NCBI GenBank assembly: GCA_022448455.1
Contig: JAKUUR010000005.1
Coordinates: 1-64,000 of the forward strand
Direction: 5' to 3'
Length of the DNA: 64,000 bases
From: Candidatus Thioglobus autotrophicus
GTDB lineage: Bacteria > Pseudomonadota > Gammaproteobacteria > PS1 > Pseudothioglobaceae
Shown: positions 29,950 to 63,301 of the stretch, piece by piece
Numbering within the stretch: position 1 is the stretch's first letter
Layout: each line of letters starts with the position of its first letter
Position numbers and translations under genes: made by a program
The notes under the pieces: generated by a model
The model's database searches: none
What the model was told of the DNA's origin: nothing
Seen by the model: only the letters and a program-made list of their open reading frames with translations

Positions 29950-30230
29950 AATTCAGTCTCGCTATTTCTTGCACCGAAAGGTGCCACTTGTAATATTTGG
30001 TGACTGATAGTTGAGCGCTCTACCAAGAAATATTTTCGACAGCCGTTGCTGTGAACCCATTGTTCCCAATGATTGCCTTTGTGGTTGGTGCGGTAAAAAA
30101 CGTAATCGGCCCACTCTTCGTCACTGATACCTTCTGGACTCTTAGGCCTTGCGATAAAAGCTTCCCCGGCTGGGGAAAATTCACTCTGGTCTCTTGATTC
30201 TTTACAGTATGGACAATGAATTAATAACAT
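29946..30230 (-). CDS. soxD: sarcosine oxidase delta subunit
   Basis: MLLIHCPYC...R.QSEF; WADYVFYRTNHKGNHWEQWVHSNGCRKYF. Confidence 0.96.
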   Translation of the reverse strand: MLLIHCPYCKESRDQSEFSPAGEAFIARPKSPEGISDEEWADYVFYRTNHKGNHWEQWVHSNGCRKYFLVERSTISHQILQVAPFGARNSETEL

Positions 30231-30249
30231 ATTACTACCTATTTTTTAA

Positions 30250-31512
30250 CTAGTGAGCGACACCTGCGGCGCCATGCTCGTCAATTAGAGCGCCAGTTTT
30301 AAAACGATCAATGTGGAATGGCTCTGCTAGTGGGTGCTGTTTATCTTGGGCAATGGTATGTGCAAAAACATGACCAGAACCTGGTGTCGCTTTAAAGCCT
30401 CCTGTTCCCCAACCACAATTAAAGTATAAACCCTCAACATTTGTCGGACTAATAATAGGGCAAGCGTCAGGACAGACATCAACAATACCACCCCATTGTC
30501 TGTTCATACGGACGCGCGAAAATATTGGAAATAATTCCAATATAGCTGCTGCAGCATGCTCAACAATCTTTGTGCTGCCTCTCTGAGCATAGGAGTTATA
30601 GCCATCAATCCCCGCACCAATGACAAGGTCTCCTTTATCACTTTGGCTAATGTAGCCATGAACGGCGTTAGACATCACAACAGTATGTAGTACCGGTTTC
30701 ATTGCTTCAGAAACAAATGCCTGCAAAGGGTGACTCTCAATTGGCAATCTAAGACCGGCCATTTTTGCCAGCACTGAAGAATGACCTGCACTGACACAAC
30801 CAATACGGTCTGCCATAATTTCTCCCTTGGTTGTTTTAACGCCTTTCACTCTTCCCTCTTCGACCTCAATATCAATCACTTCGCAATCTTGAATGATGTC
30901 AACACCAAGCATTGAAGCGGCTCTAGCAAAACCCCAAGCAATACCATCATGTCTTGCAACACCCCCGCGTGACTGGTAGGAAGCACCCATAATTGGGTAT
31001 CTTGCATTTTTTGATGTATTTATAATGGGAATTTGTTGCTTTATCTCATTAGCGTCAACAACCACAGCATCGACACCATTCAGAACGTTTGCATTAACTC
31101 TACGTTCAATATCTCGCATATTTTGTAGGCTATGACCTAGATTGTAAACACCTCTCTGGCTAAACATGACATTAAAATTGAGATCTTCACTGATACCTTC
31201 CCAAAGTTTCAGTGCATGTTCGTAAAGGCTTGAAGCTTCATCTCTAAGATAGTTTGAACGAATAATAGTAGTGTTTCTACCGGTATTGCCACCGCCAATA
31301 TAACCTTTTTCGACAACAGCAACATTGTTGATGCCGCATTCTTTTGCTAAATAGTAAGCAGTCGCTAAACCGTGCCCTCCACCGCCAATGATGATGACGT
31401 CATATTTAGATTTGGGTTGAATCAACGGAATCGCTTGATCCCAATCTTGGCCACTCAAGCCAGCCTTTAATAATGAATACCAGGAATATTTTTTTTGCAT
31501 AATTCTACTCAA
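30250..31512 (-). CDS. soxB: sarcosine oxidase beta subunit
   Basis: [83 protein letters not shown]. Confidence 0.96.
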
Positions 31513-31741
31513 CCAATAAATCTATAATTCCAAAACATAATATATCAAATCGCAATTGTAGCACTCAGTGTTATGTAAATGCCTGAGAACACAAAATATT
31601 CAGAGACTATACTTCAACATCTTTTACTATCAGCTTATTAATTAAATTAAAGCAGAAAGTAAAAAGAGCGAATTTTATCAATGAAGCATGCTCAAAGCAA
31701 TAACTTTGTTCTAAGCCAGAAATAATCAGATCACATAATTT

Positions 31742-32638
31742 TTAAGGCATCGGGATAATGTGCTGTTTTCTTGTGGCTATTCCTTGGAAAATAATAGCTG
31801 TCAGAATAAAGAATCCGCCAATAAGGGTATTAGCTTCTGGAGTTTCATGAATTCCAATGATTGGCAACCAAGCCCAAAAAATCCCAGCAACCACTTCAAG
31901 CAGTGTTAGTAGTACAAGTTCCCCGCTAGGTAAATATTTTGCCCCCAAACCAAACAGAATCAATCCGACACCGATAACTAAGCCGTTGATCAAACTTATC
32001 CCTAAATTGATTGGTGGCATTTCAAAACTACCACCTGTTGCAACAAGTAAAATTGATGCTAGTATCACACTAAAAAAGCCAGCAAGTCCCGGAGTTAGCA
32101 ATTTGGGAATCTCAGGATTGTGGCGAATGGTAATCGTATAAATGGCAAAACCAAGTGCCACAAAGAAACCGTAAGTCGCACCAATTATCGTGCTTGATTT
32201 TTCGGCATCCCAAACCATAACAATAACACCAACAACAACAATTACCATGTTTACTAATGTGACTCGACTGAGCCTTTCCCCAAGAATTAAATACCCTAGG
32301 AATGCAGAAAGAGTCGGCGACAATGCGAGCATTAACAAACTCACAGCAACACTTGTTGTCGTTAAAGCATAGATCCAACCAAACATAGTAAGAGATAACA
32401 CAAGACCGCCAAAAACAACCCAAATATCGATTCGTTTCAATGAATTAAGAAAGTTTCTGCCTTCTCTTAACAAAACATAGGCAATAACAACCAAGAAAAT
32501 AGTAATTCCTCGATAAATGAGAAAGGGAAGCCTATAGTGTTCTGCGTCTTCTAATAAACGAACAAGTGGTGCGCCCAAACTCCAGACAAGTCCGCTAATG
32601 ACCACTAGAACAAAACCTAAGAAATAGTTATTCTGCAT
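31742..32638 (-). CDS. EamA/DMT-superfamily permease
   Basis: 298 aa, about 10 TM segments, EamA repeats (LALSPTLSAFLGYLILGERLS). Confidence 0.88.
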   Translation of the reverse strand: MQNNYFLGFVLVVISGLVWSLGAPLVRLLEDAEHYRLPFLIYRGITIFLVVIAYVLLREGRNFLNSLKRIDIWVVFGGLVLSLTMFGWIYALTTTSVAVSLLMLALSPTLSAFLGYLILGERLSRVTLVNMVIVVVGVIVMVWDAEKSSTIIGATYGFFVALGFAIYTITIRHNPEIPKLLTPGLAGFFSVILASILLVATGGSFEMPPINLGISLINGLVIGVGLILFGLGAKYLPSGELVLLTLLEVVAGIFWAWLPIIGIHETPEANTLIGGFFILTAIIFQGIATRKQHIIPMP

Positions 32639-32676
32639 TTTTTAAGCCTCTTAATAACATCTGATTAGATGCCACT

Positions 32677-32688
32677 AATGCGCGCATT
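32677..32688. promoter_or_regulatory. 12-bp perfect palindrome in divergent intergenic region (putative operator)
   Basis: AATGCGCGCATT between the DMT permease (-) and the hydantoinase (+). Confidence 0.3.
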
Positions 32689-32806
32689 TTGTTCTTAAAT
32701 ACAATTTCTGTCAATCATTTTTTTTTACTTAACTATCTGAGCATAATAAAACTTGGAGATTTAATTTAAAATATACTATATCAATTCAAACTTAACAGCG
32801 TAGTGC

Positions 32807-35800
32807 ATGAATTTAGAACCTCAAGAGGATAAAAAACTTTGGCAATTTTGGATTGATCGTGGCGGAACCTTTACAGATATCGTTGGCTGCAACCCAGATG
32901 GTGAGATTTTGATACATAAATTACTCTCAGAAAACCCAAATCAATATTCTGACGCTGCGATTCAGGGCATAAGAGATCTACTCAAGTTAACTCATGAAGA
33001 GGCAATCCCAATGACTCAAATTGATGTCGTAAAAATGGGTACAACGGTTGCCACAAATGCCTTACTAGAAAGACAAGGGGAAAAAACACTGCTTGCAATT
33101 ACCCAAGGTTTTGGGGATATCTTAAGAATTGGTTATCAAAATAGACCCAAACTCTTTGCAATCGATATTCAACTACCAGAAATGCTTTACAGTGACGTGA
33201 TTGAAATTGACGAACGCCTAGACCCACGTGGTTACGTTATTAAACCGCTTGATGAGAAAAATACCGAAAAGCAATTACAAAAATACTTTGTTGACGGTTA
33301 CAGAACAATTGCAATTGTCTTGATGCACGGCTATCGATATCCTGAACATGAAAAAAAAATAGCAGCCATTGCGCAAAGAATTGGTTTTACTCAAATTTCG
33401 ATTAGTCATCAAGTCAGCCCCTTAATGAAAATTATTCCTAGAGGTGATACCACTGTTCTAGACGCATATTTATCACCAGTACTTAGACGCTACGTCAGCC
33501 AAGTAGAAAACGCACTTGGCAGAGAAGCGAAACAAACAGGTCGCTTAATGTTTATGCAATCCCATGGTGGACTAACCGATGCGCGCTTCTTTGCAGGAAA
33601 GGACGCAATACTTTCAGGGCCTGCAGGTGGCGTTGTGGGAATGGCTAAAACAGCGAAAGCAGCAGGCTTTAACAAGTTAATTGGGTTTGACATGGGTGGC
33701 ACTTCAACTGATGTCTCTCATTTCGCTGGTGATTACGAGCGTGCCTTTGAAACCGAAGTTGCTGGGATTAGATGTTGTGCGCCAATGATGCTCATCCATA
33801 CCGTTGCCGCTGGTGGAGGCTCTATACTTCATTTTGACGGATCACGCTATAGAGTTGGTCCTGATTCTGCAGGCGCCAATCCAGGTCCTGCATGTTATCG
33901 AAACGGAGGGCCTTTAACGATTACTGATTGTAATGTCATGTTAGGCAAATTAGACCCAGACTTCTTTCCTAAAGTTTTTGGTCCGAAAGCAGATCAACCT
34001 CTTAATAGTGAAGTTGTAAAAGAAAAATTTAATGATCTAACAAAACAAATCGAAAATGCAACAGGCAAACCAATCACACCCCAAGAAGTTGCAGAAGGTT
34101 TTCTATCTATTGCCATTGACAACATGAGTAATGCTATCAAAAAAATCTCAGTTCAGAGAGGTCATGATGTAAGTGACTATACCTTATCTTGTTTTGGTGG
34201 TGCAGGCGCACAACATGCATGTCTAGTTGCAGACAATTTGGGAATGAAGCAAATTCACTTACACCCGTTCGCAGGGGTTTTGTCAGCCTTTGGCATAGGT
34301 CTTGCAGACACTCGCACAATTAATGACATGGCAATTGAAGCTCAACTTGATCAACAACTAATCACCACCATTTCTTTAGAGCTTAAGACACTCAAGCAAA
34401 GGGGCGTTGAAGACTTATTAGCCCAAGGATTGAATACCTCAACACTGATTTACCATCAACGTGTTTATATCCGCTATCTAGGTTCGGATACAGCAATAGC
34501 AGTCACCTTTAACAATCTTGAGGAACTTATAAAAGAATTTGAAAGCATTCATTTTGACCGATTTGGCTTCACCTCTCCTGAAAAAAAACTGATAGTTGAG
34601 TCCATTCAAGTCGAAACTGTATCAAAAAGTACACAAACTACCTTAAAGAGAAGCACCTTGAGCACAAAGCAAATCTTAACATTGGCTGAACGGCAAGCTG
34701 TAATGGCTGGAAATATACACAATGTTTGTTTTTATGATCGTGAACAAATCCCTATAAACTTTGAAATTAAAGGACCTGCTATTATCATTGAAAAAGCCTC
34801 CACTATTGTTATTGAGCCAGGCTGGAGGGCACAGCTTTCATCAAATAATGATTTAATTCTAGAACGAATTGAACCACTCAAAAGGCAAAACGCTATAGGC
34901 ACCAATGTTGACCCTGTGATGCTTGAGGTATTTAATAACCTGTTTATGAATATTGCTGAACAAATGGGTACAGTTCTTGAAAATACTGCGGCCTCTGTGA
35001 ACATCAAAGAGAGACTTGACTTTTCCTGCGCAATTTTTACACCTGAAGGTGAGCTTGTAGCCAATGCACCTCATATACCAGTACATTTAGGATCAATGAG
35101 TGAATCCATCAAAACAATTATTCGTGAAAACGCTACCTCAATGAAATCAGGTGACGCATTTTTAATAAATGCACCCTACAACGGCGGAACTCATTTACCT
35201 GATATCACCTTAATTAAACCCGTTTATGATGAAAACAATAGTAAGGTTATTTTTTATGTTGCTAATCGTGGACATCACGCTGACATTGGAGGCATGACAC
35301 CTGGTTCTGCGCCTGCGAACTCGACACATGTTAATGAGGAAGGAGTTCTCATAGACAACTTTAAACTTGTATCTTCAGGAAAATTTTTAGAAAGTGAGAT
35401 ACACCAACTGCTGGGTACTGGTCCCTATCCTGCAAGAAATATAAAACAAAATATTGCTGACTTAAAAGCACAAGTAGCTGCAGCAGAAAAGGGTGCGAAA
35501 GAATTACTAATTATCATTGAGCGTTATGGTCTTGATGTTGTTCATGCTTATATGCAGCACGTACAAGACAATGCAGAGGAGTCAGTTCGCAGGATTATAG
35601 ATGTACTGAAAGATACTAGTTTCACTTATAAAATGGATGATGGCCATCAAGTAAGTGTTGCCATTAAGGTTGATAAAATCAGACGTTGCGCAACCATTGA
35701 TTTTACTGGAACCAGTTCACAACACCCCGGCAACTATAATGCACCAATTGCAATCTGCTATGCCGCTGTACTTTATGTCTTTCGCTGCCTAATTGACGAT

Positions 35801-36439
35801 GACATCCCGCTAAATAATGGGTGCTTTAAGCCACTAAATATAATCGTACCTGAGAAGAGCATGATTAATCCCGTCTATCCAGCCGCAGTTGTCGCCGGTA
35901 ATGTTGAGACTTCTCAATATATAGTTGATGCACTGTTTGGTGCCCTGGGAAAGATGGCTGCATCACAAGGCACAATGAATAATTACATTTGGGGAAATGA
36001 CAGAATACAAAACTATGAAACTATATGTGGTGGTTCTGGCGCTAGTGCTAATCAAAACGGATGTAGTGCAGTTCAGACTCATATGACTAATACCAGATTA
36101 ACAGACCCAGAAGTTTTAGAGTGGCGCTTTCCTGTAAGACTTGAAACTTTTAAAATTAGAAAAAATTCCGGTGGCAAAGGTAAGTACAAAGGCGGAGAAG
36201 GGGTGGATCGACAGATGCGCTTTCTTGAACCAATGACCGTTAATATGATAGCAGGACATCGAATTGAACCTCCTTATGGAATTGCAGGAGGCGAGCCAGG
36301 TGCTGTCGGTGAAAATTACGTCGTTCACTCTGATCAAAAAATTACAAATATAGGAACAAAGGGTCAAGTCGAAGTCAATAAAAATGATATTTTTATCTTA
36401 AAAACTCCCGGTGGTGGCGGTTATGGCTACCCTGACTAA
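32807..36439 (+). CDS. fused hydantoinase A/B (5-oxoprolinase / N-methylhydantoinase type)
   Basis: 1210 aa; HyuA WIDRGGTFTDIVG, GTTVATNALLERQG, GFDMGGTSTDVSH; HyuB ERLDFSCAIFTPEGELVANAPHIPVHLGSM, NRGHHADIGG. Confidence 0.93.
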   Translation: MNLEPQEDKKLWQFWIDRGGTFTDIVGCNPDGEILIHKLLSENPNQYSDAAIQGIRDLLKLTHEEAIPMTQIDVVKMGTTVATNALLERQGEKTLLAITQGFGDILRIGYQNRPKLFAIDIQLPEMLYSDVIEIDERLDPRGYVIKPLDEKNTEKQLQKYFVDGYRTIAIVLMHGYRYPEHEKKIAAIAQRIGFTQISISHQVSPLMKIIPRGDTTVLDAYLSPVLRRYVSQVENALGREAKQTGRLMFMQSHGGLTDARFFAGKDAILSGPAGGVVGMAKTAKAAGFNKLIGFDMGGTSTDVSHFAGDYERAFETEVAGIRCCAPMMLIHTVAAGGGSILHFDGSRYRVGPDSAGANPGPACYRNGGPLTITDCNVMLGKLDPDFFPKVFGPKADQPLNSEVVKEKFNDLTKQIENATGKPITPQEVAEGFLSIAIDNMSNAIKKISVQRGHDVSDYTLSCFGGAGAQHACLVADNLGMKQIHLHPFAGVLSAFGIGLADTRTINDMAIEAQLDQQLITTISLELKTLKQRGVEDLLAQGLNTSTLIYHQRVYIRYLGSDTAIAVTFNNLEELIKEFESIHFDRFGFTSPEKKLIVESIQVETVSKSTQTTLKRSTLSTKQILTLAERQAVMAGNIHNVCFYDREQIPINFEIKGPAIIIEKASTIVIEPGWRAQLSSNNDLILERIEPLKRQNAIGTNVDPVMLEVFNNLFMNIAEQMGTVLENTAASVNIKERLDFSCAIFTPEGELVANAPHIPVHLGSMSESIKTIIRENATSMKSGDAFLINAPYNGGTHLPDITLIKPVYDENNSKVIFYVANRGHHADIGGMTPGSAPANSTHVNEEGVLIDNFKLVSSGKFLESEIHQLLGTGPYPARNIKQNIADLKAQVAAAEKGAKELLIIIERYGLDVVHAYMQHVQDNAEESVRRIIDVLKDTSFTYKMDDGHQVSVAIKVDKIRRCATIDFTGTSSQHPGNYNAPIAICYAAVLYVFRCLIDDDIPLNNGCFKPLNIIVPEKSMINPVYPAAVVAGNVETSQYIVDALFGALGKMAASQGTMNNYIWGNDRIQNYETICGGSGASANQNGCSAVQTHMTNTRLTDPEVLEWRFPVRLETFKIRKNSGGKGKYKGGEGVDRQMRFLEPMTVNMIAGHRIEPPYGIAGGEPGAVGENYVVHSDQKITNIGTKGQVEVNKNDIFILKTPGGGGYGYPD

Positions 36440-36506
36440 TATATGTATTTATAATGGAGCAGAGCTAATTAGACGCTCATCATTAAAACTGAAAGAGAGT
36501 TGAACT

Positions 36507-37370
36507 ATGAAAAACATCAAACAAAACCAGGCCCCTCTTGATGCCCATAAACGCCAACAAAATAAACCCGTTATCGCCTATCCTATAGATGCCTTGCCTA
36601 AATCAAATAAAGACCTCTACGAATCTGCAAGAAAGCAATTAACTTTGATTGATGAAACCATCATTCCTCCAAGAGAGGCAAAAACTTTTGTTGTTCCTGC
36701 GGGTCATTTTTTTCGAATTGTATGTAGCGAAGGCCCACAAGTAGGAGATCTAAACCTTTGGAACAATGACAACATCAATGAGCACTTTTATAGTGGCAAA
36801 ACGAGAGCACTTTATGGCACCCATGTTAGTACCGCTGATCGCCTATATTCAAATTTTCCCTATCTCAGACCGATGGCGACTATCACCCACGACACACTAG
36901 ATTGGTATGGCTGGGACAAAGATGGCGGCGGTGTCCACGATGTCATTGGTACTCGCTGCGACCCCTACACTCATATGGCGCTTAGTGGAAATGAATATCA
37001 TTATTGCTGCCATTCAAACCTTTGTCGAGCGCTATCCAAGCAGCAAAGAAAACCAATCTCTGAAATAGAAATCCTAGTTCATGATGTTCTTAATGTTTTC
37101 ATGTGTACTGGCTTTACCAAAGACACCCACCAGTACTTTATGAAAGCGAGTCCAGTTCGCCCTCATGACTTCATTGAGATGTTTGCTGAAATTAACTTGT
37201 TGGGAGCGCTGTCAGCCTGCCCTGGAGGAGATTGCAGTTCTTCACATTCAAGTGACTCAGCCACTTGTTATCCTTTGAAGGTTGAAATTTATAAGCCAAA
37301 TCAGGATAGCTTGAATGACTGGCGCCCACCATCAACTAGTAAATATTCTGGCGATCATGGTTATAAATGA
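36507..37370 (+). CDS. DUF1989 / urea carboxylase-associated family protein
   Basis: ETIIPPREAKTFVVPAGHFFRIV, GPQVGDLNLWN, YHYCCHSNLCRAL, CPGGDCSS. Confidence 0.85.
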   Translation: MKNIKQNQAPLDAHKRQQNKPVIAYPIDALPKSNKDLYESARKQLTLIDETIIPPREAKTFVVPAGHFFRIVCSEGPQVGDLNLWNNDNINEHFYSGKTRALYGTHVSTADRLYSNFPYLRPMATITHDTLDWYGWDKDGGGVHDVIGTRCDPYTHMALSGNEYHYCCHSNLCRALSKQQRKPISEIEILVHDVLNVFMCTGFTKDTHQYFMKASPVRPHDFIEMFAEINLLGALSACPGGDCSSSHSSDSATCYPLKVEIYKPNQDSLNDWRPPSTSKYSGDHGYK

Positions 37371-37400
37371 AACTGAATTACATACATTCAAATATAGTAA

Positions 37401-39005
37401 ATGACTAGTTACGATTACATTATTGTTGGCGCCGGTTCAGCTGGCTGTGTTTTAGCCAATCGTTTAAGTGCAAATCCTGAAAATAGCGTTTGTTTGATTG
37501 AAGGTGGTGGTAGCGATAAAAGCCCATGGATTCAAATTCCAGCTGGAATTTTTGGATTATATGGCCACAAGAAATTTGATTACGCATACCAAGGCGTTCC
37601 TCAGAAGAACCTAAATAACCGCACTATCACAGTCAATCGTGGTAAGTGTCTCGGCGGTACCAGTTCGATCAACGGTATGATCTACATACGTGGCAACAAG
37701 AATGATTATGACAATTGGGCCAAGCTGGGCTGTGAAGGCTGGTCCTACGAAGAAGTCCTGCCTGTATTTAAAAAACTTGAGAATGACCAAACAGGTGGAG
37801 AATCAAAATATCACTCTTCAGATGGAGAGTGGCCAGTAGTTAAACCACAAGACGTGAACGCAACTGCCAAACGCTTTGTTAAGGCTGGAAGAACAATCGG
37901 GCTACCGCATAATCAAGACTTTAATGCCAGCTCACAATTGGGCCTTGGAATTTATAATGTAAACCAAAACAAGGGTACTCGAGTGAGTTCTTATACAGCC
38001 TTTGTCGAACCTATTCTGAAAAGACCAAATCTGACAATCCTTACCCATGCAAAGGTTAAAGCATTGGATATTGAGGGTGATTGTGCTAAGGCAGTCAATA
38101 TAGTAATGAATGAAACCGATAAAAAGCTAATTTGCAACAAAGAAATTATTCTTAGTGCCGGTGCTATCGATTCACCTAGAATTCTCCTTGCCTCGGGCAT
38201 TGGAAATAAAAATGACCTTGACGAGCTAGGAATAACTTGCAAACACAACGTGGTCGGTGTTGGCGAGAATCTTCAAGACCACCTGGACACAATGGTTACT
38301 ATTCGCTCGAAAAAGGCTGAATCTATAGGTGTCTCTTGGAAATCTTTGTTGCCTGATGTAATTACTGCTCCGTTTAAATACTATTTTAATAAGATGGGAT
38401 GGTGGACAACTAATTATGTCGAAGCGGGAGGCTTTGCTGAGACCAAATATGCCAATAATAACTATCCAGATGTTCAATTCCACTTCACTCCAATATATAG
38501 GAGTCACCGCGGCAAAAGATTTGAGTTTGGCCATGGCTACTCGCTTTTCACTTGTTTATTGCGCCCTCACAGCACAGGCTCTATCAAGTTGACCAAGGAG
38601 GGGTCAACATTTAAACTACTCATTGATCACAATTTTTTATCCGATCCAAGAGATGAAACTATCATAATTGAGGCAGTAAAAAAAGCCAGAGAAGTCTTAT
38701 TATCGGCAGAATTTGACGAAGTTCGTGGCAAAGAAATGGCTCCAGGAAAAACAGTACAGAGCGATCAAGAGATATTGGAATACATACGCAGAACCGCACT
38801 GACGGTCTACCACCCAGTTGGAACCTGCAAAATGGGAATTGATGAACTAGCTGTGGTTTCGCCAGAAAATTTAAAGGTAAAAGGGATGAATAATTTGCGT
38901 GTTATCGATGCCTCAATTATGCCAACCATTGTCAGCGGCAATACCTCAGCACCGACCATGATGATTGCAGAAATGGGCTCAAGAATGATACTGAATAAAT
39001 CGTAA
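37401..39005 (+). CDS. GMC-family FAD oxidoreductase (choline dehydrogenase-like)
   Basis: YDYIIVGAGSAGCVLANRLS, RGKCLGGTSSINGMIYIRGN, YHPVGTCKMG, SGNTSAPTMMIAE. Confidence 0.95.
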   Translation: MTSYDYIIVGAGSAGCVLANRLSANPENSVCLIEGGGSDKSPWIQIPAGIFGLYGHKKFDYAYQGVPQKNLNNRTITVNRGKCLGGTSSINGMIYIRGNKNDYDNWAKLGCEGWSYEEVLPVFKKLENDQTGGESKYHSSDGEWPVVKPQDVNATAKRFVKAGRTIGLPHNQDFNASSQLGLGIYNVNQNKGTRVSSYTAFVEPILKRPNLTILTHAKVKALDIEGDCAKAVNIVMNETDKKLICNKEIILSAGAIDSPRILLASGIGNKNDLDELGITCKHNVVGVGENLQDHLDTMVTIRSKKAESIGVSWKSLLPDVITAPFKYYFNKMGWWTTNYVEAGGFAETKYANNNYPDVQFHFTPIYRSHRGKRFEFGHGYSLFTCLLRPHSTGSIKLTKEGSTFKLLIDHNFLSDPRDETIIIEAVKKAREVLLSAEFDEVRGKEMAPGKTVQSDQEILEYIRRTALTVYHPVGTCKMGIDELAVVSPENLKVKGMNNLRVIDASIMPTIVSGNTSAPTMMIAEMGSRMILNKS

Positions 39006-46221: not shown

Positions 46222-46404
46222 TAAAATAATTACTTAAAAAATCATTTTTATCTACTAAAAAATGAAGCCAAAAGCTAGCATTCAAAGAGAAGCGTTATTA
46301 TATTCTCTTATTTTAATTTAATTACTCATTATTGAATTAAATTATCTTCAAACGGATGATGACTTATAAAAAATCTCTATCCTCGTCTAGGTTAAAAGAA
46401 CCAT

Positions 46405-47343
46405 TTAGTAACCTTTGGTAATGTTATAGATAGGAAATGGCATTTTTCCATCCTCTATGCGGCGGATATTTTCAGCAATTGTTTTTGCTGAAGATTTTGG
46501 ATTGCTTTGTCCTGCAATGTGAGGCGTAATGTAGACAGATGGATGACTCCAGAGAGGATTGTTTGTAGGCAAAGGCTCTTGTTCAAATACATCCAAAGCC
46601 GCCGCAGTAATATGGTTTTCATCTAGTAGAGACAATAAATCTGCCTCATTGATAATACCACCTCTGCCCATATTAATAATAAATGAACCTCTAGGTAAAA
46701 ATTTGAGCTCATCCTTTCTAAGCATATTTTTTGTGTCTTTAGAAAAAGGTAGAACATTAATTAATATATTTGTCTTAACTAGAAAATCACTTAATTGCAC
46801 CTTTCCAAAAAAGTATTTAATATCACCCAAAGATGATTTTTGATTGGCACCCCAACCCAACACCTTAAAGCCTTGATCAATTAGTGACTCACCAATACCT
46901 CTTCCAATATTGCCTAAACCCATAATTCCAACTGTCCTATCTTCAGGTTGAATGGAGCTTTGCTGTTGCCATTTTCTATCAAGCTGTTGTTTCATGTACA
47001 GATAGTGGTCACTATGAAAATGCAATACCCAATGAAGAGCATGAAAACACATCTCATGCGTTAACTTTACATCAACCAAACGAACAATTGGCAAATCCTT
47101 TGGCAAGTCAGGATCACTGAGAATATGATCCACTCCTGCACCTAAAGAGAGAATCGCTTTAAGATTTGGATATCGTTTTAAAATCCCATGTGGGTGCTTC
47201 CATACAACAGCATACTCGATTTCATTCTCGTTACCGACATCAGGATAGACTCTGACATCAATCTCTGGCAACTCAGACTGAACCCATTGATGCCAAACCT
47301 TTTCATCTTCCCAAAATTCGCTAACTGAAATTAATAATGCCAA
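46405..47343 (-). CDS. D-2-hydroxyacid dehydrogenase (glyoxylate/hydroxypyruvate reductase A-like)
   Basis: VGIMGLGNIGRGIGESL, NMGRGGIINEADLL, TPHIAGQSNPKS. Confidence 0.88.
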   Translation of the reverse strand: MALLISVSEFWEDEKVWHQWVQSELPEIDVRVYPDVGNENEIEYAVVWKHPHGILKRYPNLKAILSLGAGVDHILSDPDLPKDLPIVRLVDVKLTHEMCFHALHWVLHFHSDHYLYMKQQLDRKWQQQSSIQPEDRTVGIMGLGNIGRGIGESLIDQGFKVLGWGANQKSSLGDIKYFFGKVQLSDFLVKTNILINVLPFSKDTKNMLRKDELKFLPRGSFIINMGRGGIINEADLLSLLDENHITAAALDVFEQEPLPTNNPLWSHPSVYITPHIAGQSNPKSSAKTIAENIRRIEDGKMPFPIYNITKGY

Positions 47344-47352
47344 AACTGACTC

Positions 47353-48252
47353 CTATGTTTTGCTTCTAAGTTGTTGATTATGTCTTTCTTCAATTAATCG
47401 AACAATACTTAAATGAGGCGCCTCATCACCATACAGCTTTGTTGCTTCTTGATAAGTGTTATAAACTTTTTCCCCGAGTGGCATTGAGATACCAAGGTGG
47501 TGGCCGAGCTCGACAATCAGTTTCATATCTTTTTCAGCCAGTCCAAGTGCAAATGAAGTGTCGTAGCTACCATCCAATACTTTTGGGATATAGTTTTCAA
47601 CCACGTAGCTTTGAGAACAACTATTCATCAACACTGAATGAAGGGTTTTTAAGTCTAGGTTGGCTTTCGCACCCATCATTAGAGTCTCTCCAATCCCTTG
47701 TGCAGCAAGGTAATTTAGATGCAGTTGTACCAACTTGGTGACATAACCTGACCCAGAGGGGCCCATGCGAATGACCTTACTAGCAAACACTTTCAACAAT
47801 GACTCAAACTTTTTCAAAACTTCTTTTTCAATACCAAGAAAGGTAGTTAAAGTTCCTGCTGCTGCCCGCTCTGCACCGCCACTAACTGGAGCATCAATCA
47901 ATGTCAAATGATTTGGCGCGCACTCCTTAACTTTCTCCCACTCAGCTAATTCGTTTGTAGTGGTTTCAAACCAAGTAGCACCTTCTTTTAAATTATTCAA
48001 AATACCTTTATTGCCAAATGCTAAAAGATTGACTTCATTTGAGCTTGGGAGGGATGTAAAAAGCACATCGCACTGTGGACACATCTTTGATGCACTTTCT
48101 CCATTTATAGCGCCTTTAGCAATGAAGTCAGCTAAAACTGTTTCGTTAATATCCAAAACAATTAACCTATCGCCTGAATCTTTGCAATGCATTAATAAAT
48201 TATGTGCCATACCAGCACCCATATTTCCTAAACCAATAAATCCTATATTCAT
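47353..48252 (-). CDS. NAD(P)-dependent beta-hydroxyacid dehydrogenase (3-hydroxyisobutyrate dehydrogenase family)
   Basis: MNIGFIGLGNMGAGMAHNLL, LIDAPVSGGAERAAAGTL, GYVTKLVQL. Confidence 0.9.
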   Translation of the reverse strand: MNIGFIGLGNMGAGMAHNLLMHCKDSGDRLIVLDINETVLADFIAKGAINGESASKMCPQCDVLFTSLPSSNEVNLLAFGNKGILNNLKEGATWFETTTNELAEWEKVKECAPNHLTLIDAPVSGGAERAAAGTLTTFLGIEKEVLKKFESLLKVFASKVIRMGPSGSGYVTKLVQLHLNYLAAQGIGETLMMGAKANLDLKTLHSVLMNSCSQSYVVENYIPKVLDGSYDTSFALGLAEKDMKLIVELGHHLGISMPLGEKVYNTYQEATKLYGDEAPHLSIVRLIEERHNQQLRSKT

Positions 48253-48286
48253 TTTCTATCCTCAGTCAGTTAGATTGTTGAGACTA
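48169..48286. repeat. direct repeat copy A (start of HIBADH gene plus upstream junction)
   Basis: 84-nt coding part differs from copy B (49859-49976) at 7 positions; similarity continues about 34 bp upstream of the ATG. Confidence 0.88.
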
Positions 48287-49016
48287 TTAAACGGTGAGCA
48301 CACAGGTGTTCATAGTGCGGCATGACAATATCGTAAATTTCTTTGACACGATCTGGCAAATCATTAACTTCAACATAATTGCGTTTTTGTGGTTTTAAAC
48401 CATCTGAGTTGCGCAAATTTTCATGAAATATACCGCCATCCCACCAACTCACTTCATCGCGTGCACCCGGCTCCCAACTAAGAGCTCGTTCAATAAATGG
48501 AATGCCAACAGTGTTGCAATAAGCTTCAACAATACCATGAGGATTTTCAAGTAAGTCATCACTATCAATAACCACTGGAGTTTTACCTGTATTACTCCAA
48601 ACTATATCGAACAACTCTCTTTGTTCTATGTAACCTATTTCTTTTAAAACGAAATCAGGAAAATATTTGTATATTGAGCTTATTGTTTTTGCAGGATCTC
48701 GGATTAAAAAGCTATGATTAAAATGGGATAGAAACTCGTCAGTCCAAAGATGACTAATATAATGTGGAAAATCTTTGCAAAAAACAGATTTTTGAGCAAC
48801 CGTTTTCTTAAGTTTTGTAAAAACACCCTCTAATGATAATCCTGGTATGCGTAAACTATTTTCTTGCACTCTTGGCCAAAGCGGATTCTCTCCTTGATAC
48901 CAAGCTTCCCCAAAAGGTTCGTGAAAACATTCCATATCTCCTCGTTGGCGCATCATCCATTCGAATGCGGTTGAAGTAGACCTAGGAGTTGCCCATAGAA
49001 CGAGTATTTTATTCAT
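48270..49016 (-). CDS. sulfotransferase-like family protein
   Basis: MNKILVLWATPRSTSTAFEWMMRQRGDMECFHEPFGEAWY (PAPS-binding-like P-loop); start trimmed from 49067. Confidence 0.72.
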   Translation of the reverse strand: MNKILVLWATPRSTSTAFEWMMRQRGDMECFHEPFGEAWYQGENPLWPRVQENSLRIPGLSLEGVFTKLKKTVAQKSVFCKDFPHYISHLWTDEFLSHFNHSFLIRDPAKTISSIYKYFPDFVLKEIGYIEQRELFDIVWSNTGKTPVVIDSDDLLENPHGIVEAYCNTVGIPFIERALSWEPGARDEVSWWDGGIFHENLRNSDGLKPQKRNYVEVNDLPDRVKEIYDIVMPHYEHLCAHRLIVSTI

Positions 49017-49032
49017 TAGTTGAAATCTATAT

Positions 49033-49860
49033 TTATTTAAGTTTGGAAAGTAAGTGACCATGTTCACCGGTAGGCGCTATTCCAAGGCTTTTAAATATAC
49101 GCCAGTAGAGCGCAACATCTGATGCAATGACTGGCTTACCTATTATTTTCTCGAAATTCGGAGTATAGAATAGTGCTCTTTGTGGCAATCCATCTAATCG
49201 CCGCCAATTAGGCATGCCATTAATCACAATAGCATCAGCATCAGGTACTTTTTCTGATACGTAAATCATAGATTTTTCCGCTAATTCATTAGGGAAGATC
49301 CAAGTTAAATCATTAACCTCTTGTTGTGTTTTATAGAAGCCTTGGTCAACAAAATTTCCAACATATGCAACATCAAAACCCGCTTCTCTTAAGAAGCGAG
49401 TAATACCATCGCGCCAATCAGGCCAATAATAAACTGAGTTTAAGGCTATTTTTTCTGCATTTAGTTCATGAAGAGCTTCCACTAAACACATGCCAGCCAT
49501 ATGGAAAGGTGTTTCATATTTGTCACTTAGTTTGTTACAGAATTGACGGATTTGGTCTGGACTAGTGCCATTGCAATGCACCCAGTTTGTACCAACCTGG
49601 CCCACTACATCTGCACCACTATTTGACATACAGTGGACAAATTCTTCTAAAAGATCGAAGTTTTTGGTTCTCTGAGTTAATTCGTGGGCATATCCTGGTA
49701 CATGCAGAATACGACCGTGCACGCCCACTTCTTCGGGAGCTATTATAAGGAAATCACTTGGTGCGGCATCATAGTCATAAGGAGGAGAAGTGAAACCTAC
49801 TTGAGAAGGGAATAATTTATTATCTGGGTTTGACCATTTTTCCGGTTTCATTGCCTTCAT
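49033..49860 (-). CDS. Asp/Glu racemase superfamily (maleate isomerase / arylmalonate decarboxylase-like)
   Basis: GADVVGQVGTNWVHCNG, MCLVEALHELNAEKIAL, DADAIVINGMPNWRR, KPVIASDVALYWRIFKSLGI. Confidence 0.75.
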   Translation of the reverse strand: MKAMKPEKWSNPDNKLFPSQVGFTSPPYDYDAAPSDFLIIAPEEVGVHGRILHVPGYAHELTQRTKNFDLLEEFVHCMSNSGADVVGQVGTNWVHCNGTSPDQIRQFCNKLSDKYETPFHMAGMCLVEALHELNAEKIALNSVYYWPDWRDGITRFLREAGFDVAYVGNFVDQGFYKTQQEVNDLTWIFPNELAEKSMIYVSEKVPDADAIVINGMPNWRRLDGLPQRALFYTPNFEKIIGKPVIASDVALYWRIFKSLGIAPTGEHGHLLSKLK

Positions 49861-49942
49861 CTCCTGAATCTTTACAGTACATTAATAAATTATGTGCCAT
49901 ACCAGCACCCATATTACCTAGGCCAATAAATCCTATATTCAT
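49859..49942 (-). pseudogene. 5' remnant of a 3-hydroxyisobutyrate dehydrogenase gene (duplicate of 48169-48252)
   Basis: Encodes MNIGFIGLGNMGAGMAHNLLMYCKDSGD, then runs into the AMDase-like gene start; 77/84 nt identical to the intact gene start. Confidence 0.88.
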
Positions 49943-49976
49943 GTTGTTATCCTTAGTCTGTTAAATTGTCGAGTCG
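49859..49976. repeat. direct repeat copy B
   Basis: Includes the 3' end of the 49953-50837 gene (DNLTD*) plus the HIBADH 5' remnant; copy A retains the same NLTD* codons in an alternative frame. Confidence 0.85.
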
Positions 49977-50837
49977 TTCTAAGTCACGCTCGTGATGAAT
50001 TGACATTGAGCGTCCATAGAAAGCTTCAGCGTGATGAGGTCTGTTAACCAAGTATGGATTAGTGACATACGTTGGCAAGGCAATAATTCTTGGTGTATCG
50101 CCTCTAGTAACAGTTACTCTATGCAACGAGTAACGCCCTTTAAATATTTGCAAATCTCCCGTCTTCAAGCTTAACATTCTTACCTTATCGCGTTCACCTT
50201 GTAACACTCTCTTTACATCCTCAAAGTGTTCATTATGTGGTGAACGAATATCTGGTGCATACTCAAAGTCACCACCTTCATCAGATTCACTAACGAGAAT
50301 ACTAACAGTAAATTCATTGCCATCGAAGTGCCATGGAAAGTAGTCACCATCATTCATAATACTGTAAGGATTTCGACCTAAGGGTTCTGCCCATCGATAA
50401 ATAGGGCCGACATTCAAACAGTCAGAGACAAAATGTACTACCACGTCAGAGTCATATATTTTTCTAAGAACCGAGTCACTTTCTAATAGATCTGAATTTA
50501 TAAATGACGACGTTCTTTCTTCAAAAAAACGGTTTGGGTGGTCTTTAGGAAGTGTGGTGTCCTCTTTTGTGAGATAAGGGTTTACAAGCGTATGCGCCCT
50601 TCTAGCCCCATCCATTATTCTGAATGCTTCATCTTTCATTTTCTTAATCGCTGAAGAGGAAATAAAATCAGGTATATGTGCACATCCCCATTTATTTAAA
50701 TCTAAACGACAATCTTTAACTAATTCAGCCCTTTTTAGATGGGTTAAATCATGGATAGGGAATTGCTCTAAATCAAGAAACTCGTCCAAACGAATTTCTG
50801 CAGCACTGTAGGCTGAAGGAGCAACAATTTCTGACAT
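49953..50837 (-). CDS. PhyH/2OG-Fe(II) dioxygenase-like protein
   Basis: FPWHFDGNEFTVSILV (HxD), GGDFEYAP, LQIFKGRYSLHRVTVTRGDTPRIIAL distal His/Arg. Confidence 0.75.
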   Translation of the reverse strand: MSEIVAPSAYSAAEIRLDEFLDLEQFPIHDLTHLKRAELVKDCRLDLNKWGCAHIPDFISSSAIKKMKDEAFRIMDGARRAHTLVNPYLTKEDTTLPKDHPNRFFEERTSSFINSDLLESDSVLRKIYDSDVVVHFVSDCLNVGPIYRWAEPLGRNPYSIMNDGDYFPWHFDGNEFTVSILVSESDEGGDFEYAPDIRSPHNEHFEDVKRVLQGERDKVRMLSLKTGDLQIFKGRYSLHRVTVTRGDTPRIIALPTYVTNPYLVNRPHHAEAFYGRSMSIHHERDLERLDNLTD

Positions 50838-57818: not shown

Positions 57819-59360
57819 ATGAGTAGTGCTGTAGAGCGTCTTGGTCGGAACGTAAGAAGAGCTGAACGATTAAAAACTAAAATCGAAATGCTTCCGACTT
57901 TAAAGCGCAACATTCCCTTAACGGAGCCGATGAGCGAAGAGCAGATTCTGCAAATGGACAATGCCTCTTTATCAATCCTTGAGGAGGTAGGTGTTGAGTT
58001 TCATGACCCCATTGCCCTTCAACATTGGACTGATGCAGGCGCTGATGTTCAGGGAGAGCGCGTTCACTTTGATAGAGGCCTTATTCGTGAATTAATTTCA
58101 ACGATTCCTGAAAATCTCACTATGGAGGCACGTGACCCTGAAAAGTCACTTGAAATTGGAGGCAATAACTCAATCTTTGTGCCCATGACTGGCGCCCCAT
58201 TTATCTCTGACCTTGAAAACAAAAGACGCCTTCCAACTCTGGAAGACTTGGCCAATTTCCACAAACTTTCACATATGCTACCTGCTCTCCATTCGAGTGC
58301 TCACCACATTGTTGAGCCAATGGACCATCCGATTTCTCATCGTCACCTAAGAATCACCTATTCATCAATGAAACACTCAGATAAAACCTTTATGGGTATG
58401 ACAACTAGTGGTAAAAATGCTGAAGATGTGATGGAAATGTGCAAGATACTCTTTGGTGCAGAATATATTGATAGTCATCCGGTAGTCACCGGTAATGTAA
58501 ACGGAAATTCTCCACTGGTATGGGACCAAACCATGCTCTCAGCGCTACGCGTTTTTTCTGCTCACAACCAGCCTGTACTTTGTTCACCATTCGTTTTAGG
58601 TGGTGCCAATACGCCAGCAAGTGTCGCCCCGACTGTTGCTCAACTAAATGCAGAAGCCCTATCGGCACTTGCTTATACGCAAGTTATCCGCAAAGGAGCG
58701 CCGGCAATCTATGGCCACTATCTTGCTACAGTATCAATGCAATCAGGAGCACCAATGGCGGGTACACCTGAAATCTCTTTAATGAACTTTATGATTGGAC
58801 AAATGGCGCGTTATTACCAAGTTCCCTGGCGCAGCTCAAGCACACTAGGCGGTTCAAAACTATTTGATGCACAATCAGGCTATGAAAGCGCCTCGACTAT
58901 GATGGCTGTTCTTCTGTCTGGTGCTAACTATATTTGGCACTCTGCCGGTTGGAATGAAGCTGGAATGCACTGCTCAATGTCAAAGTTTGTAGTGGATGCT
59001 GAGCAATGTGAAATGGGTTATAGAATGGCAGAAGGTATTCGCTGGGATGATTTTGATGAGGGTTTAGCTGCTATTAGAGATGTCGGTCCTGGTGGCCACT
59101 ATCTCGGACATCAACATACAATGGACAATTTCCAAAGGGCATTTTTTATGCCCAAGTTATTTGACAATAATTCTATCGAACAATGGGAAGCTGATGGCAG
59201 TAAGGACACAATACAGAGAGGGATTGAGGGTGCCAAGAAATTACTAGCTGATTACCAAGAACCTAAATTGGATGAAGATAAGGATGAAGAACTTCTTGAT
59301 TTTATTGCTAGAAGAGAAACAACAATTCCTGCAATGGAAGCGCTTAATCAGGAATATTAA
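57819..59360 (+). CDS. trimethylamine methyltransferase (MttB) family protein, non-pyrrolysine
   Basis: 513 aa; TMEARDPEKSLEIGG, VPMTGAPFISDLENKRRLPTLEDLANFHKL, GAPMAGTPEISLMNFMIGQMARYY; no in-frame stop within the ORF, so no amber/Pyl codon. Confidence 0.9.
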   Translation: MSSAVERLGRNVRRAERLKTKIEMLPTLKRNIPLTEPMSEEQILQMDNASLSILEEVGVEFHDPIALQHWTDAGADVQGERVHFDRGLIRELISTIPENLTMEARDPEKSLEIGGNNSIFVPMTGAPFISDLENKRRLPTLEDLANFHKLSHMLPALHSSAHHIVEPMDHPISHRHLRITYSSMKHSDKTFMGMTTSGKNAEDVMEMCKILFGAEYIDSHPVVTGNVNGNSPLVWDQTMLSALRVFSAHNQPVLCSPFVLGGANTPASVAPTVAQLNAEALSALAYTQVIRKGAPAIYGHYLATVSMQSGAPMAGTPEISLMNFMIGQMARYYQVPWRSSSTLGGSKLFDAQSGYESASTMMAVLLSGANYIWHSAGWNEAGMHCSMSKFVVDAEQCEMGYRMAEGIRWDDFDEGLAAIRDVGPGGHYLGHQHTMDNFQRAFFMPKLFDNNSIEQWEADGSKDTIQRGIEGAKKLLADYQEPKLDEDKDEELLDFIARRETTIPAMEALNQEY

Positions 59361-59363
59361 CTT

Positions 59364-59508
59364 ATGAGTGATGAAATGAAAAAAGTGGCATTAATCACAG
59401 GATCCTTTGGTGGCATGGCTTGCCTCACCTGAGTCAAGCTTTGTTACCGGTCAGGTTTATACTATTGATGGTGGACGTATGGCAAAACTTAGCCTACCAA
59501 ACATTTAG
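59364..59508 (+). pseudogene. short-chain dehydrogenase (SDR) remnant with large internal deletion
   Basis: Frame 1: [18 protein letters not shown] (SDR N-terminus); another frame: [30 protein letters not shown] (SDR C-terminus); catalytic middle absent. Confidence 0.88.
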
Positions 59509-59516
59509 GGGAAAAA

Positions 59517-60425
59517 ATGAAATTTGAAGGAATATATACACCAATTGTCACTCCCTATGATGACAATCATGGCATCAATTACGACGTAATTGAGGCTATT
59601 GTTGATGATCTGATTAGTAGTGGTGTTCATGGCTTACTTGTAGCCGGCACTACCGGTGAATACTACTCCCAAGAGAAAGATGAGCGCGTGCAGTTAATGA
59701 AAACTTGTAAGGAGATTATTGGCAATCGACTGCCCTTCGTTGTCGGGACAGGTGCTATTCGAACTGAAGATTCCGTTTTTTTCGCTGAAGAGGCAGCTAA
59801 GGTGGGCGCTGATGCAATTTTAGTTTCAACTTCACCTTATGCACTACCTACAGAGAGGGAAAATGCACTCCACGCCCTGGCTATTGATCGAGCCGCAAAT
59901 TTACCTATCATACTATACAATTATCCTGGACGTACTGGTGCTATGATGGGTGCAGAATATCTGGATCGAGTTGGAAGGTCTTCTAATTTTTGTGCCATTA
60001 AAGAAAGTAGCGGTGATATTGACCGACTCCACTTATTGGCAAGAGATTACTCGCACATTCAACTATGTTGTGGCATGGATGACCAGGCATTAGAATTCTT
60101 TGCTTGGGGCGCAAGCTGCTGGGTCTGCGCTGGCTCAAACTTTGCCCCAGAAGCGCACATTGCTCTCTATCAAGCTTGCCGAGTTGAGGGTAACTTTGAT
60201 AAAGGTAGGCGCATAATGTCTGCAATGATGCCATTGATGAGAGTACTCGAACAAGGTGGCAAATTTATTCAATGTGTAAAACACGGATCAACAATGAGAG
60301 GTCTACCGGTAGGTCCGCCAAGAAAGCCATTACAACCACTCAACAAAGATGATAAGCGCCAACTCGAGCAGGTCATCGGTGTGATGAACCATACGATTAA
60401 TCTAATTACAAAGGAGGGTAGCTAA
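59517..60425 (+). CDS. dihydrodipicolinate synthase/N-acetylneuraminate lyase (DapA) family
   Basis: YTPIVTPYDDNHGINYD, GLLVAGTTGEYYSQEKDER, ILYNYPGRTGAMM, FCAIKESSGDIDRL. Confidence 0.93.
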   Translation: MKFEGIYTPIVTPYDDNHGINYDVIEAIVDDLISSGVHGLLVAGTTGEYYSQEKDERVQLMKTCKEIIGNRLPFVVGTGAIRTEDSVFFAEEAAKVGADAILVSTSPYALPTERENALHALAIDRAANLPIILYNYPGRTGAMMGAEYLDRVGRSSNFCAIKESSGDIDRLHLLARDYSHIQLCCGMDDQALEFFAWGASCWVCAGSNFAPEAHIALYQACRVEGNFDKGRRIMSAMMPLMRVLEQGGKFIQCVKHGSTMRGLPVGPPRKPLQPLNKDDKRQLEQVIGVMNHTINLITKEGS

Positions 60426-61928
60426 ATGCCAGATTTACTAACTCACGAGGAATACCAAGCGATTGGAAAATCACTAGATTTTCCAACTAACGCTTTTATC
60501 AATGGACAATTTCAGGCCTCTAAATCAGGTAACACTTTCGAAACAATTAACCCAGCAACGGGTCAAGTGATTGCCAAGATAGCGGCCTGCAACGCTGATG
60601 ATGTTGACCATGCCGTCATGAAGGCGCGAGAATCGTTCGACCAAGGACACTGGTCTAAGCTTCACCCAAGTGAGAGAAAAGAGGCACTCATTAAACTTTC
60701 AAAACTCATTAAGCGAAACATTCAAGAGCTCGCTGTGATGGAAAGCATTGATTCGGGTAAACCGATTCGTGACTGTGCAACAATTGACCTTCCAGAGACG
60801 ATTGATTGTCTTCTTTGGCATGCCGAGGCAGTTGATAAGATTTATGATCAAACCGCCCCTGCAGGTGAAGACGCTCTGGCAGTTATAGTTCGTGAACCAA
60901 TAGGTGTTGTTGGCTGTGTTTTGCCATGGAACTTCCCGTTATTGATGCTGGCTTGGAAAATAGCGCCTGCACTCGCTGCTGGTAACTCGGTTATTGTTAA
61001 ACCAGCTGAACAAACCAGCCTAACTGCTCTTAGAATAGCCGAACTATCAATAGAGGCAGGCATTCCAAGAGGTGTTTTTAATGTACTGACAGGAATGGGG
61101 CCAGATGTAGGGCAGCCCTTAGGTTTGCATCCAGATGTTGATATGGTTTCATTTACAGGTTCAACGGAAACTGGTCGTCGATTTCTGCGTTATTCGGCTG
61201 ACTCTAATCTCAAGAAAATCGTCCTTGAGTGTGGTGGAAAGAACCCGGCAATTGTTTTAGATGATGCCGAAGAATTGGATTTAGTTGCTGAACACTTGAT
61301 CAACGCCTCTTTTTGGAATATGGGCCAGAATTGCTCAGCTAGCTCTAGGTTAATCGTTCAAGAAAACATCAAAGAAGCCTTGTTAGACAAAATGCTTGCC
61401 CATCTTCGTGATTGGAAAACAGGAGATCCACTAGACCCTTCCAACTACCTTGGTTCTTTAGTTGATGTGGAACACTTCAAAAAAGTTTGCAGTTATTTGG
61501 ATAACGACAATATCATTACTGGCGGTGTCACCGAGAGTCCTTGTTACGTACTTCCAACTATAGTTGATAAGGTTGATCCTAACTCTAAATTAGCCCAAGA
61601 AGAAGTTTTTGGTCCGATACTCTCGGTAATAACTGTGAAATCATTCGATGAGGCCATCGCTGTTGCAAACAATACCGATTATGGTCTTGCCGCAAGTGTG
61701 TTTACAGCCAATGGCAAAAAAGCAATCAGGGCTGCAAGGTCAATTAAAGCTGGTACAGTAACAGTGAACTGCTATGGTGAAGGTGACATGAGCACACCAT
61801 TCGGCGGCTATAAGCAGTCAGGCTTTGGTGGAAGAGACAACTCTATTCATGCACATGATCAATACACAGAATTAAAAACGATCTGGATAGATCTTTCCGA
61901 CCGCGCTCCTGAAGAGTCTATCGACTAG
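60426..61928 (+). CDS. aldehyde dehydrogenase family (betaine aldehyde / gamma-aminobutyraldehyde type)
   Basis: LPWNFPLLMLAWKIAPALAAGNSVIVKPAEQTS, VLECGGKNPAIV, GQNCSASSRL, GGYKQSGFGGRDNS. Confidence 0.95.
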   Translation: MPDLLTHEEYQAIGKSLDFPTNAFINGQFQASKSGNTFETINPATGQVIAKIAACNADDVDHAVMKARESFDQGHWSKLHPSERKEALIKLSKLIKRNIQELAVMESIDSGKPIRDCATIDLPETIDCLLWHAEAVDKIYDQTAPAGEDALAVIVREPIGVVGCVLPWNFPLLMLAWKIAPALAAGNSVIVKPAEQTSLTALRIAELSIEAGIPRGVFNVLTGMGPDVGQPLGLHPDVDMVSFTGSTETGRRFLRYSADSNLKKIVLECGGKNPAIVLDDAEELDLVAEHLINASFWNMGQNCSASSRLIVQENIKEALLDKMLAHLRDWKTGDPLDPSNYLGSLVDVEHFKKVCSYLDNDNIITGGVTESPCYVLPTIVDKVDPNSKLAQEEVFGPILSVITVKSFDEAIAVANNTDYGLAASVFTANGKKAIRAARSIKAGTVTVNCYGEGDMSTPFGGYKQSGFGGRDNSIHAHDQYTELKTIWIDLSDRAPEESID

Positions 61929-61945
61929 CTTTTACCTGATAGTAA

Positions 61946-63301
61946 GTGGCTAGTATGATTCATCTCCCTGCCAACCCTGGCATCTCAGGCTGGAGAGGGA
62001 TTCTATCTGCTAGGCAGACCCATAAACAATTGGATGAAAATCTGAATGCTGACTATCTTGTAATTGGCGCAGGTTTTGCAGGACTCTCTGCGGCACGTCG
62101 CCTCAATCAATTACAGCCCGATGCCAAGATTGCAGTATTGGAGGCTTGTGAGGTGAGTGAAGGGCCGGCTGGTCGCAATTCAGGTTTTATGATTGACCTA
62201 CCTCATGACTTATCATCTGACGATTATTTAGGTAGCGTTAAAAAAGATATTGAACAAACGCTTATTAATCGATCTGCAATTGAATTTGCAAAAAGTGCTG
62301 CCGAAGAGTATCAAATGCCTTCAGAAGCACTACAACAAGTCGGCAAAACCAATGCAGCTGCAACCCCCAAAGGTATGACTTTCAACGCCGACTACGCAAA
62401 ACATTTAACCAAAACAGGCGAGGATTATCGACTATTAGATGCCACTCAAATGCATGACCTTACTGGCATCAACTACTACCAAGGGGGGTTATGGACACCC
62501 GGAACCGTGCTCTTGCAACCCGCCCTCTATATCCGAGGCTTTGCCGATGGTGTTGCGCAATATGCAAACTTACATCTCTATGAAAACTCTCCGGTCATTG
62601 ATTTGATTTATGAAGGTAAACACGATGGTCAAACAATTTGGAAAGCTAAAACTATGCTAGGTTCAGTCACCAGCCCTAAAGTCATTTTGGCTGTCAACGG
62701 TTTGATTGAAAAATTTGGATATTTTCAAAATAGACTGATGCATATTTTTACATATGCCTCTATGACCAGACAACTTAGCTCCGAGGAAGTTGAGAGTTTA
62801 GGAGGTCAAGCTGAATGGGCATTTACCTCAGCAGACCCAATGGGCTCATCCATTAGGCGCTTATCCGGAATAGGGGGGGATCGGATTATGGTTCGCAATC
62901 GCTTTACCTATGATCCCAGCATGGAAGTCTCACAATCACGAATGGCTGCAGTGTCCAATAGCCATATATCGGCTTTCAATGCTCGATTCCCGATGCTAGA
63001 CAAAGTATCAATGGAGTATTGCTGGGGAGGCCGCTTATGTTTAAGTTTAAACAACGTCTTCGCACAAGGCGAGGTTGCAGAAGGCGTATATTCTGCATGC
63101 TGTCAGAATGGTCTTGGTACAGCCAAAGGTACAGCCATTGGAATTATCTCTGCTGAAAAAGCGAGTGGCACTAAAGAAAGCCTTGTTCCTAATTTTAAAA
63201 CAGAAGAAGCACCAAAAAAACTCCTCCCAAAGCCGTTGATGTGGATTGGCGTCAATAGCTATATTCGCTGGAAAGAGCTAGGCGCAGGCAAAGAAAAATA
63301 A
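61946..63301 (+). CDS. FAD-dependent oxidoreductase, DAO family (PuuB/DadA-like)
   Basis: DYLVIGAGFAGLSAARRLNQL, GPAGRNSGFMIDLPHDL, YCWGGRLCLSLN, CCQNGLGTAKGT; start GTG 61946 or ATG 61955. Confidence 0.9.
   Translation: MASMIHLPANPGISGWRGILSARQTHKQLDENLNADYLVIGAGFAGLSAARRLNQLQPDAKIAVLEACEVSEGPAGRNSGFMIDLPHDLSSDDYLGSVKKDIEQTLINRSAIEFAKSAAEEYQMPSEALQQVGKTNAAATPKGMTFNADYAKHLTKTGEDYRLLDATQMHDLTGINYYQGGLWTPGTVLLQPALYIRGFADGVAQYANLHLYENSPVIDLIYEGKHDGQTIWKAKTMLGSVTSPKVILAVNGLIEKFGYFQNRLMHIFTYASMTRQLSSEEVESLGGQAEWAFTSADPMGSSIRRLSGIGGDRIMVRNRFTYDPSMEVSQSRMAAVSNSHISAFNARFPMLDKVSMEYCWGGRLCLSLNNVFAQGEVAEGVYSACCQNGLGTAKGTAIGIISAEKASGTKESLVPNFKTEEAPKKLLPKPLMWIGVNSYIRWKELGAGKEK

Follow-up and report, generated by a model that had tools for sequence, protein, structure and literature searches.

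The window, that is the whole stretch of 64,000 nucleotides analysed here (positions 1–64,000 of contig JAKUUR010000005.1 from genome G000, which belongs to the Ca. Thioglobus/Pseudothioglobus group of marine bacteria; all coordinates are window positions), contains a dioxygenase gene, a pair of genes encoding an AMDase-like protein and a sulfotransferase-family protein, and a gene for a HIBADH-family dehydrogenase (Table 1). A truncated HIBADH start (the remnant) lies between the dioxygenase gene and the pair, and the sulfotransferase stop codon falls within a relic of a dioxygenase 3′ end. Farther away, positions 26929–39005 and 57819–63301 hold genes for a sarcosine-oxidase-like protein, a hydantoinase A/B fusion, a GMC oxidoreductase, an MttB-family methyltransferase and a FAD oxidoreductase, which hints at a broader region devoted to the catabolism of methylated amines or hydantoins.

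Table 1. Features of the dioxygenase–HIBADH locus (window positions).
Feature	Position	Strand	Basis
Full HIBADH-family dehydrogenase, mosaic: 5′ ~400–600 nt foreign-like, 3′ third native-like	47353..48252	-	Identity profile and MaxChi
Right, putatively homologous breakpoint zone in HIBADH (gene nt ~400–607)	47646..47852	-	MaxChi
Dioxygenase 3′ end relic (S-L-N-N-L-T-D-stop, out of frame) and HIBADH leader, probably brought with imported HIBADH	48253..48288	-	~28/33 nt as in G013
Sulfotransferase-family protein (PF19798), 248 aa, second gene of pair	48270..49016	-	Pfam 6.4e-15; TPRSTST and RDP motifs
AMDase/maleate-isomerase-fold protein, 272 aa, first gene of acquired pair	49033..49851	-	PF17645 2e-8; PDB 4ix1 1.1e-30; 80 related loci
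Left, putatively illegitimate junction, native HIBADH (GGAGATGA) to AMDase-like leader	49852..49862	-	Comparison with G005 and G006
Remnant, probably first 28 codons of native HIBADH (copy B), decaying scar	49859..49942	-	Grouping with G005 in tree; AU test
Dioxygenase (PF23169 HalD family, Fe/2OG-oxygenase-like), upstream gene of ancestral pair	49953..50837	-	Pfam 2.6e-13; same-genus orthologues

The AMDase-like protein scores above the curated cut-off of the PF17645 profile (34.6 versus 25.9 bits) and does not reach that of the NCBIfam equivalog (27.5 versus 225). Its likeness to arylmalonate decarboxylases, maleate isomerases and Asp/Glu racemases is one of superfamily level (PF17645; PDB 4ix1 and, weakly, 4fq5). 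Members of the arylmalonate decarboxylase family have a catalytic cysteine. Unlike the enzymes of these three groups, the protein encoded here is without the canonical catalytic cysteines and is paired with a sulfotransferase-family gene: Cys96 is a cysteine at 37 of the 80 related loci and an alanine at 43, and in a weak profile alignment to maleate isomerase (E = 0.001) the first cysteine corresponds to a glycine and the second to an invariant methionine. The name thus describes the fold and not the reaction. Across this family several histidines are invariant, among them H95 and H120 (in a 275-aa reading), and no catalytic cysteine is conserved. Across 59 sequences, the sulfotransferase residues P11 R12 S13 T14 S15 T16, R106, P108 and S114 are conserved at 93% or above, and the protein appears, by its motifs, to be of the PAPS type (PF19798), with a 5′ P-loop-like and a 3′ RDP-type motif. 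Between this genome and G012, dN is 0.022 and dS is 0.236 for the AMDase-like gene, and the pair is under purifying selection.

A sulfotransferase-family gene adjoins the AMDase-like gene at 64 of the 80 loci (60 downstream, 4 upstream), which include the three other carriers of the pair described below. The AMDase-like relatives come from records titled Gamma- and Alphaproteobacteria, Acidimicrobiales and Anaerolineales, the nearest outside the genus sharing ~75% protein identity. In L080, L083 and L086, two to three sulfotransferase-family genes stand in tandem around the AMDase-like gene. At two loci of the Ilumatobacter group, in another phylum (L105 and L110), the AMDase-like and sulfotransferase genes follow, in this order, dioxygenase, HIBADH, class II aldolase and enolase-superfamily genes that are homologues of the window cluster (35–63% identity), and at L127 the pair lies beside homologues of the 568-aa protein, the dipeptidase and the aldehyde dehydrogenase. 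These gene contexts link the pair to the same pathway, and it is a conserved unit that probably adds a reaction to this catabolic pathway. Tentatively, it could also be seen as a cysteine-free enzyme module that bacteria from several phyla have built into catabolic operons of the dioxygenase/dehydrogenase kind; a possible role, in which a hydroxylated intermediate is sulfated and then undergoes elimination or decarboxylation, is speculation. As for the source of the pair, a foreign composition was rejected, GC and GC3 being like those of its neighbours. No AMDase-like relative was found in the viral contigs searched for a virus-borne origin, no donor among 83 genomes of the family outside the four carriers, and no AMDase–sulfotransferase operon in the literature searched.

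The sequence-only reading had described a direct repeat of ~118 bp around a two-gene cassette. The repeat is real: in a pairwise comparison within the window, positions 48169–48255 (copy A, the start of the full HIBADH) and 49859–49945 (copy B, the remnant) are 91% identical over 87 nt, with a spacing of 1690 nt. The details given at that time also hold, with 77 of 84 nt identical over the HIBADH start, six of the seven changes synonymous (the lone replacement is H22Y) and a similarity that continues upstream through the dioxygenase stop codon; the NLTD-stop codons terminate the dioxygenase at copy B, and at copy A they lie out of frame in the sulfotransferase 3′ end. A whole-genome search with the HIBADH start as query matched 49859–49973 at 88% (E = 1.2e-34) and detected no second comparable copy, the next match in this genome having an E-value of 2.3e-5 over 31 nt. 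In G012 and G018, the remnant is interrupted by a stop codon and small changes; it is therefore not maintained as a gene.

Among 29 same-genus genomes searched, 12 have a close dioxygenase orthologue (identity of at least 74%). The cassette-free order was found at nine loci in 8 same-genus genomes, against four genomes in which the pair lies at the dioxygenase–HIBADH junction (this genome, G012, G018 and G006), in agreement with the earlier proposal that dioxygenase–HIBADH is the ancestral order and that the pair was gained at this junction. The cassette-free relatives look as predicted, with a HIBADH ATG 8–12 bp after the dioxygenase stop codon where about 10 bp had been expected. The truncated HIBADH start is retained in this genome, G012 and G018, and G006 is without it. 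An assembly artefact is unlikely, since these three separate assemblies have the left junction and the remnant in common.

At the left junction, codon 28 of the native HIBADH is joined to the AMDase-like leader in the same three genomes. The ATG exactly at the breakpoint (49860), previously taken as the AMDase-like start, is probably not the start, as the native HIBADH of G005, the closest cassette-free relative, reads GGAGATGAC there. Translation probably begins at the ATG at 49851 (~MKPE), where the alignments of most relatives begin, and an AGGAG belonging to HIBADH codons ~9 nt before this ATG may act as ribosome-binding site. For the sulfotransferase, the ATG at 49016 is probably the start rather than the GTG at 49067, because a stop codon interrupts the corresponding longer reading in the other carriers. 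The relic in front of the full HIBADH gene matches the dioxygenase end of G013 at ~28 of 33 nt (hand count), which suggests that in the donor lineage the pair probably lay already between dioxygenase and HIBADH.

The full HIBADH gene is a mosaic. Its identity between the carriers and G005 is 78–85% over nt 1–600 and 91–93% over nt 601–897, the background elsewhere being about 91–95%. MaxChi places a breakpoint at 607 for G000 and G005 (p = 0.0015) and at 393 for G012 and G018 versus G005 (p = 0.0005, the lowest value that the test can give). Over all sites, MaxChi detected no significant step between the carriers and G028 or G006; at third positions, G000 and G028 show a weaker step of opposite sign (p = 0.02). 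When G006 (filled) is compared with G028 (empty), the flanks are 91–100% identical, for the most part 95–100%, and the HIBADH 5′ part mostly 69–80%, with a breakpoint at 627 (p = 0.0005), in an independent case of the same pattern. As both contrasts are mosaic, the pair seems to have travelled with the 5′ part of a neighbour's HIBADH gene in both lineages. A cassette-linked HIBADH type shared by G006 and the clade of this genome was not seen; for either part of HIBADH, G006 groups with G028.

The carriers' dioxygenase shares only 82% identity with that of G005, versus 88–97% for neighbouring genes and 92–95% for most of the surroundings; the locus has therefore recombined more than once. Between nt 451 and 600, the dioxygenase (window 49953–50837; G005, L036) is nearer to G022 and G001 (86%) than to G005 (81%), which gives it a mosaic look. 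The 2-hydroxyacid dehydrogenase gene (46222–47343) is 83–85% identical to both G005 and G012, and at its start G012 and G005 are 95–97% identical to each other, pointing to another exchange that is private to this genome.

Over the first 84 nt, the remnant differs from the native HIBADH of G005 at 4 positions and from the full HIBADH of its own genome at 7, and copy A differs from G005 at 9. In the tree, the three remnants cluster with G005 (77% support), apart from the three full copies, so that the nearest kin of the remnant is the native HIBADH of G005 and not the adjoining full gene. From this affinity, the filled and empty sites, the common junction and the HIBADH mosaic, all of them observed, we infer a one-step mechanism, its direction and its donor. 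We consider it likely that the remnant is the stump of the old native HIBADH gene beside an imported AMDase-like–sulfotransferase–HIBADH′ fragment, left by a single event of homology-facilitated illegitimate recombination (HFIR). The recipient would be the ancestor shared by this genome, G012 and G018, with a resident dioxygenase–HIBADH operon, and the fragment would come from another Pseudothioglobus lineage. On the right side, homologous recombination within HIBADH would have produced a gene with a foreign 5′ and a native 3′ part; on the left side, the fragment would have been fused to the native HIBADH behind codon 28, with no long homology involved. Native codons 29 to ~130–200 would have been lost, with the orthologous part in their place, and since HIBADH′ came with a start of its own, the stump would look like a duplication.

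A history in two steps, with a clean import followed by the illegitimate joining of a native dioxygenase–HIBADH-start fragment at the AMDase leader, would give the same end product. Such a clean arrangement is seen in G006, and the 82% identity of the carriers' dioxygenase to that of G005 leaves room for a separate history of the left side; however, one more event is needed and the intermediate occurs in no genome of this clade, which makes this history rather unlikely.

We also regard as unlikely an in situ duplication, in which the pair was inserted with a doubling of ~118 bp of resident sequence (by template switching or staggered joining) and the copies diverged later. The two copies do stand as direct repeats on either side of the cassette, each with a dioxygenase end and a HIBADH start, but a true duplication would make copies A and B closest relatives. 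In an AU test on an alignment of ~118 nt, with the limited power of that length, a sister relationship of A and B was rejected (p = 0.011), as was one of A and G005 (p = 0.020), and the HIBADH mosaic would not be explained unless a foreign allele later overwrote copy A. The earlier interpretation as a duplication of resident sequence is thus probably wrong, the remnant being apparently the native HIBADH start and the 5′ part of the full gene that of another lineage. Excision of the 1,690-bp unit by recombination between the repeats, suggested by the same reading, found no support either: the hybrid HIBADH left behind would resemble the carriers at ~93% in its 5′ body, whereas that of G005 is only 78–85% identical to theirs, so that G005 does not fit as an excision product. 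A mobile element or site-specific insertion with target-site duplication, which the direct repeats at the cassette edges and the wide distribution of the pair might evoke, is highly improbable, since no transposase or integrase gene adjoins the cassette, its edges have no inverted repeats, the cassette shows no target-site duplication of single origin (the AU test points to different origins for remnant and full copy) and in G006, where the pair occupies this very site, no such repeat is present.

HFIR, the reading that we prefer, has been defined by one homologous and one illegitimate end, the latter in most cases with 3–10 bp of micro-homology, and by an associated deletion (PMC3240628). The locus resembles the cases of Streptococcus pneumoniae, Acinetobacter baylyi and Pseudomonas stutzeri (PMC3240628) in having one homologous joint, at the mosaic breakpoint of HIBADH (MaxChi p = 0.0015 and 0.0005), together with a non-homologous one, and in the coupling of the insertion to a loss of resident sequence, here codons 29 to ~130–200 of the native gene. 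In the known system, the process is RecA-dependent and the incoming DNA is linear. In contrast to these cases (PMC3240628), the event would be natural, older and inferred from relatives, and the lost resident part was apparently replaced by its orthologous counterpart, leaving the operon intact; as to micro-homology, the G006 leader (GAGAGGAA) set against the native sequence (GAGATGAC) gives hints only. A similar process has been proposed for leftover genes in Vibrio (PMC5361080). The displacement of T6SS effector modules in Vibrio cholerae likewise involves a homology-anchored incoming module and resident sequence left beside it, but here the operon is metabolic instead of effector–immunity and the leftover is a non-functional stump (PMC5361080). 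As a case of HFIR, the locus is a new instance of a known process and a well documented natural one.

The filled and empty sites show how streamlined marine bacteria can add a metabolic step to an existing operon with no mobile element in sight, neighbouring genes in common serving as homology arms for such a gain. They also call for caution, as a flanking direct repeat may consist of two orthologues brought together and not of a duplication. The gene pair that moved is a conserved, uncharacterised unit.
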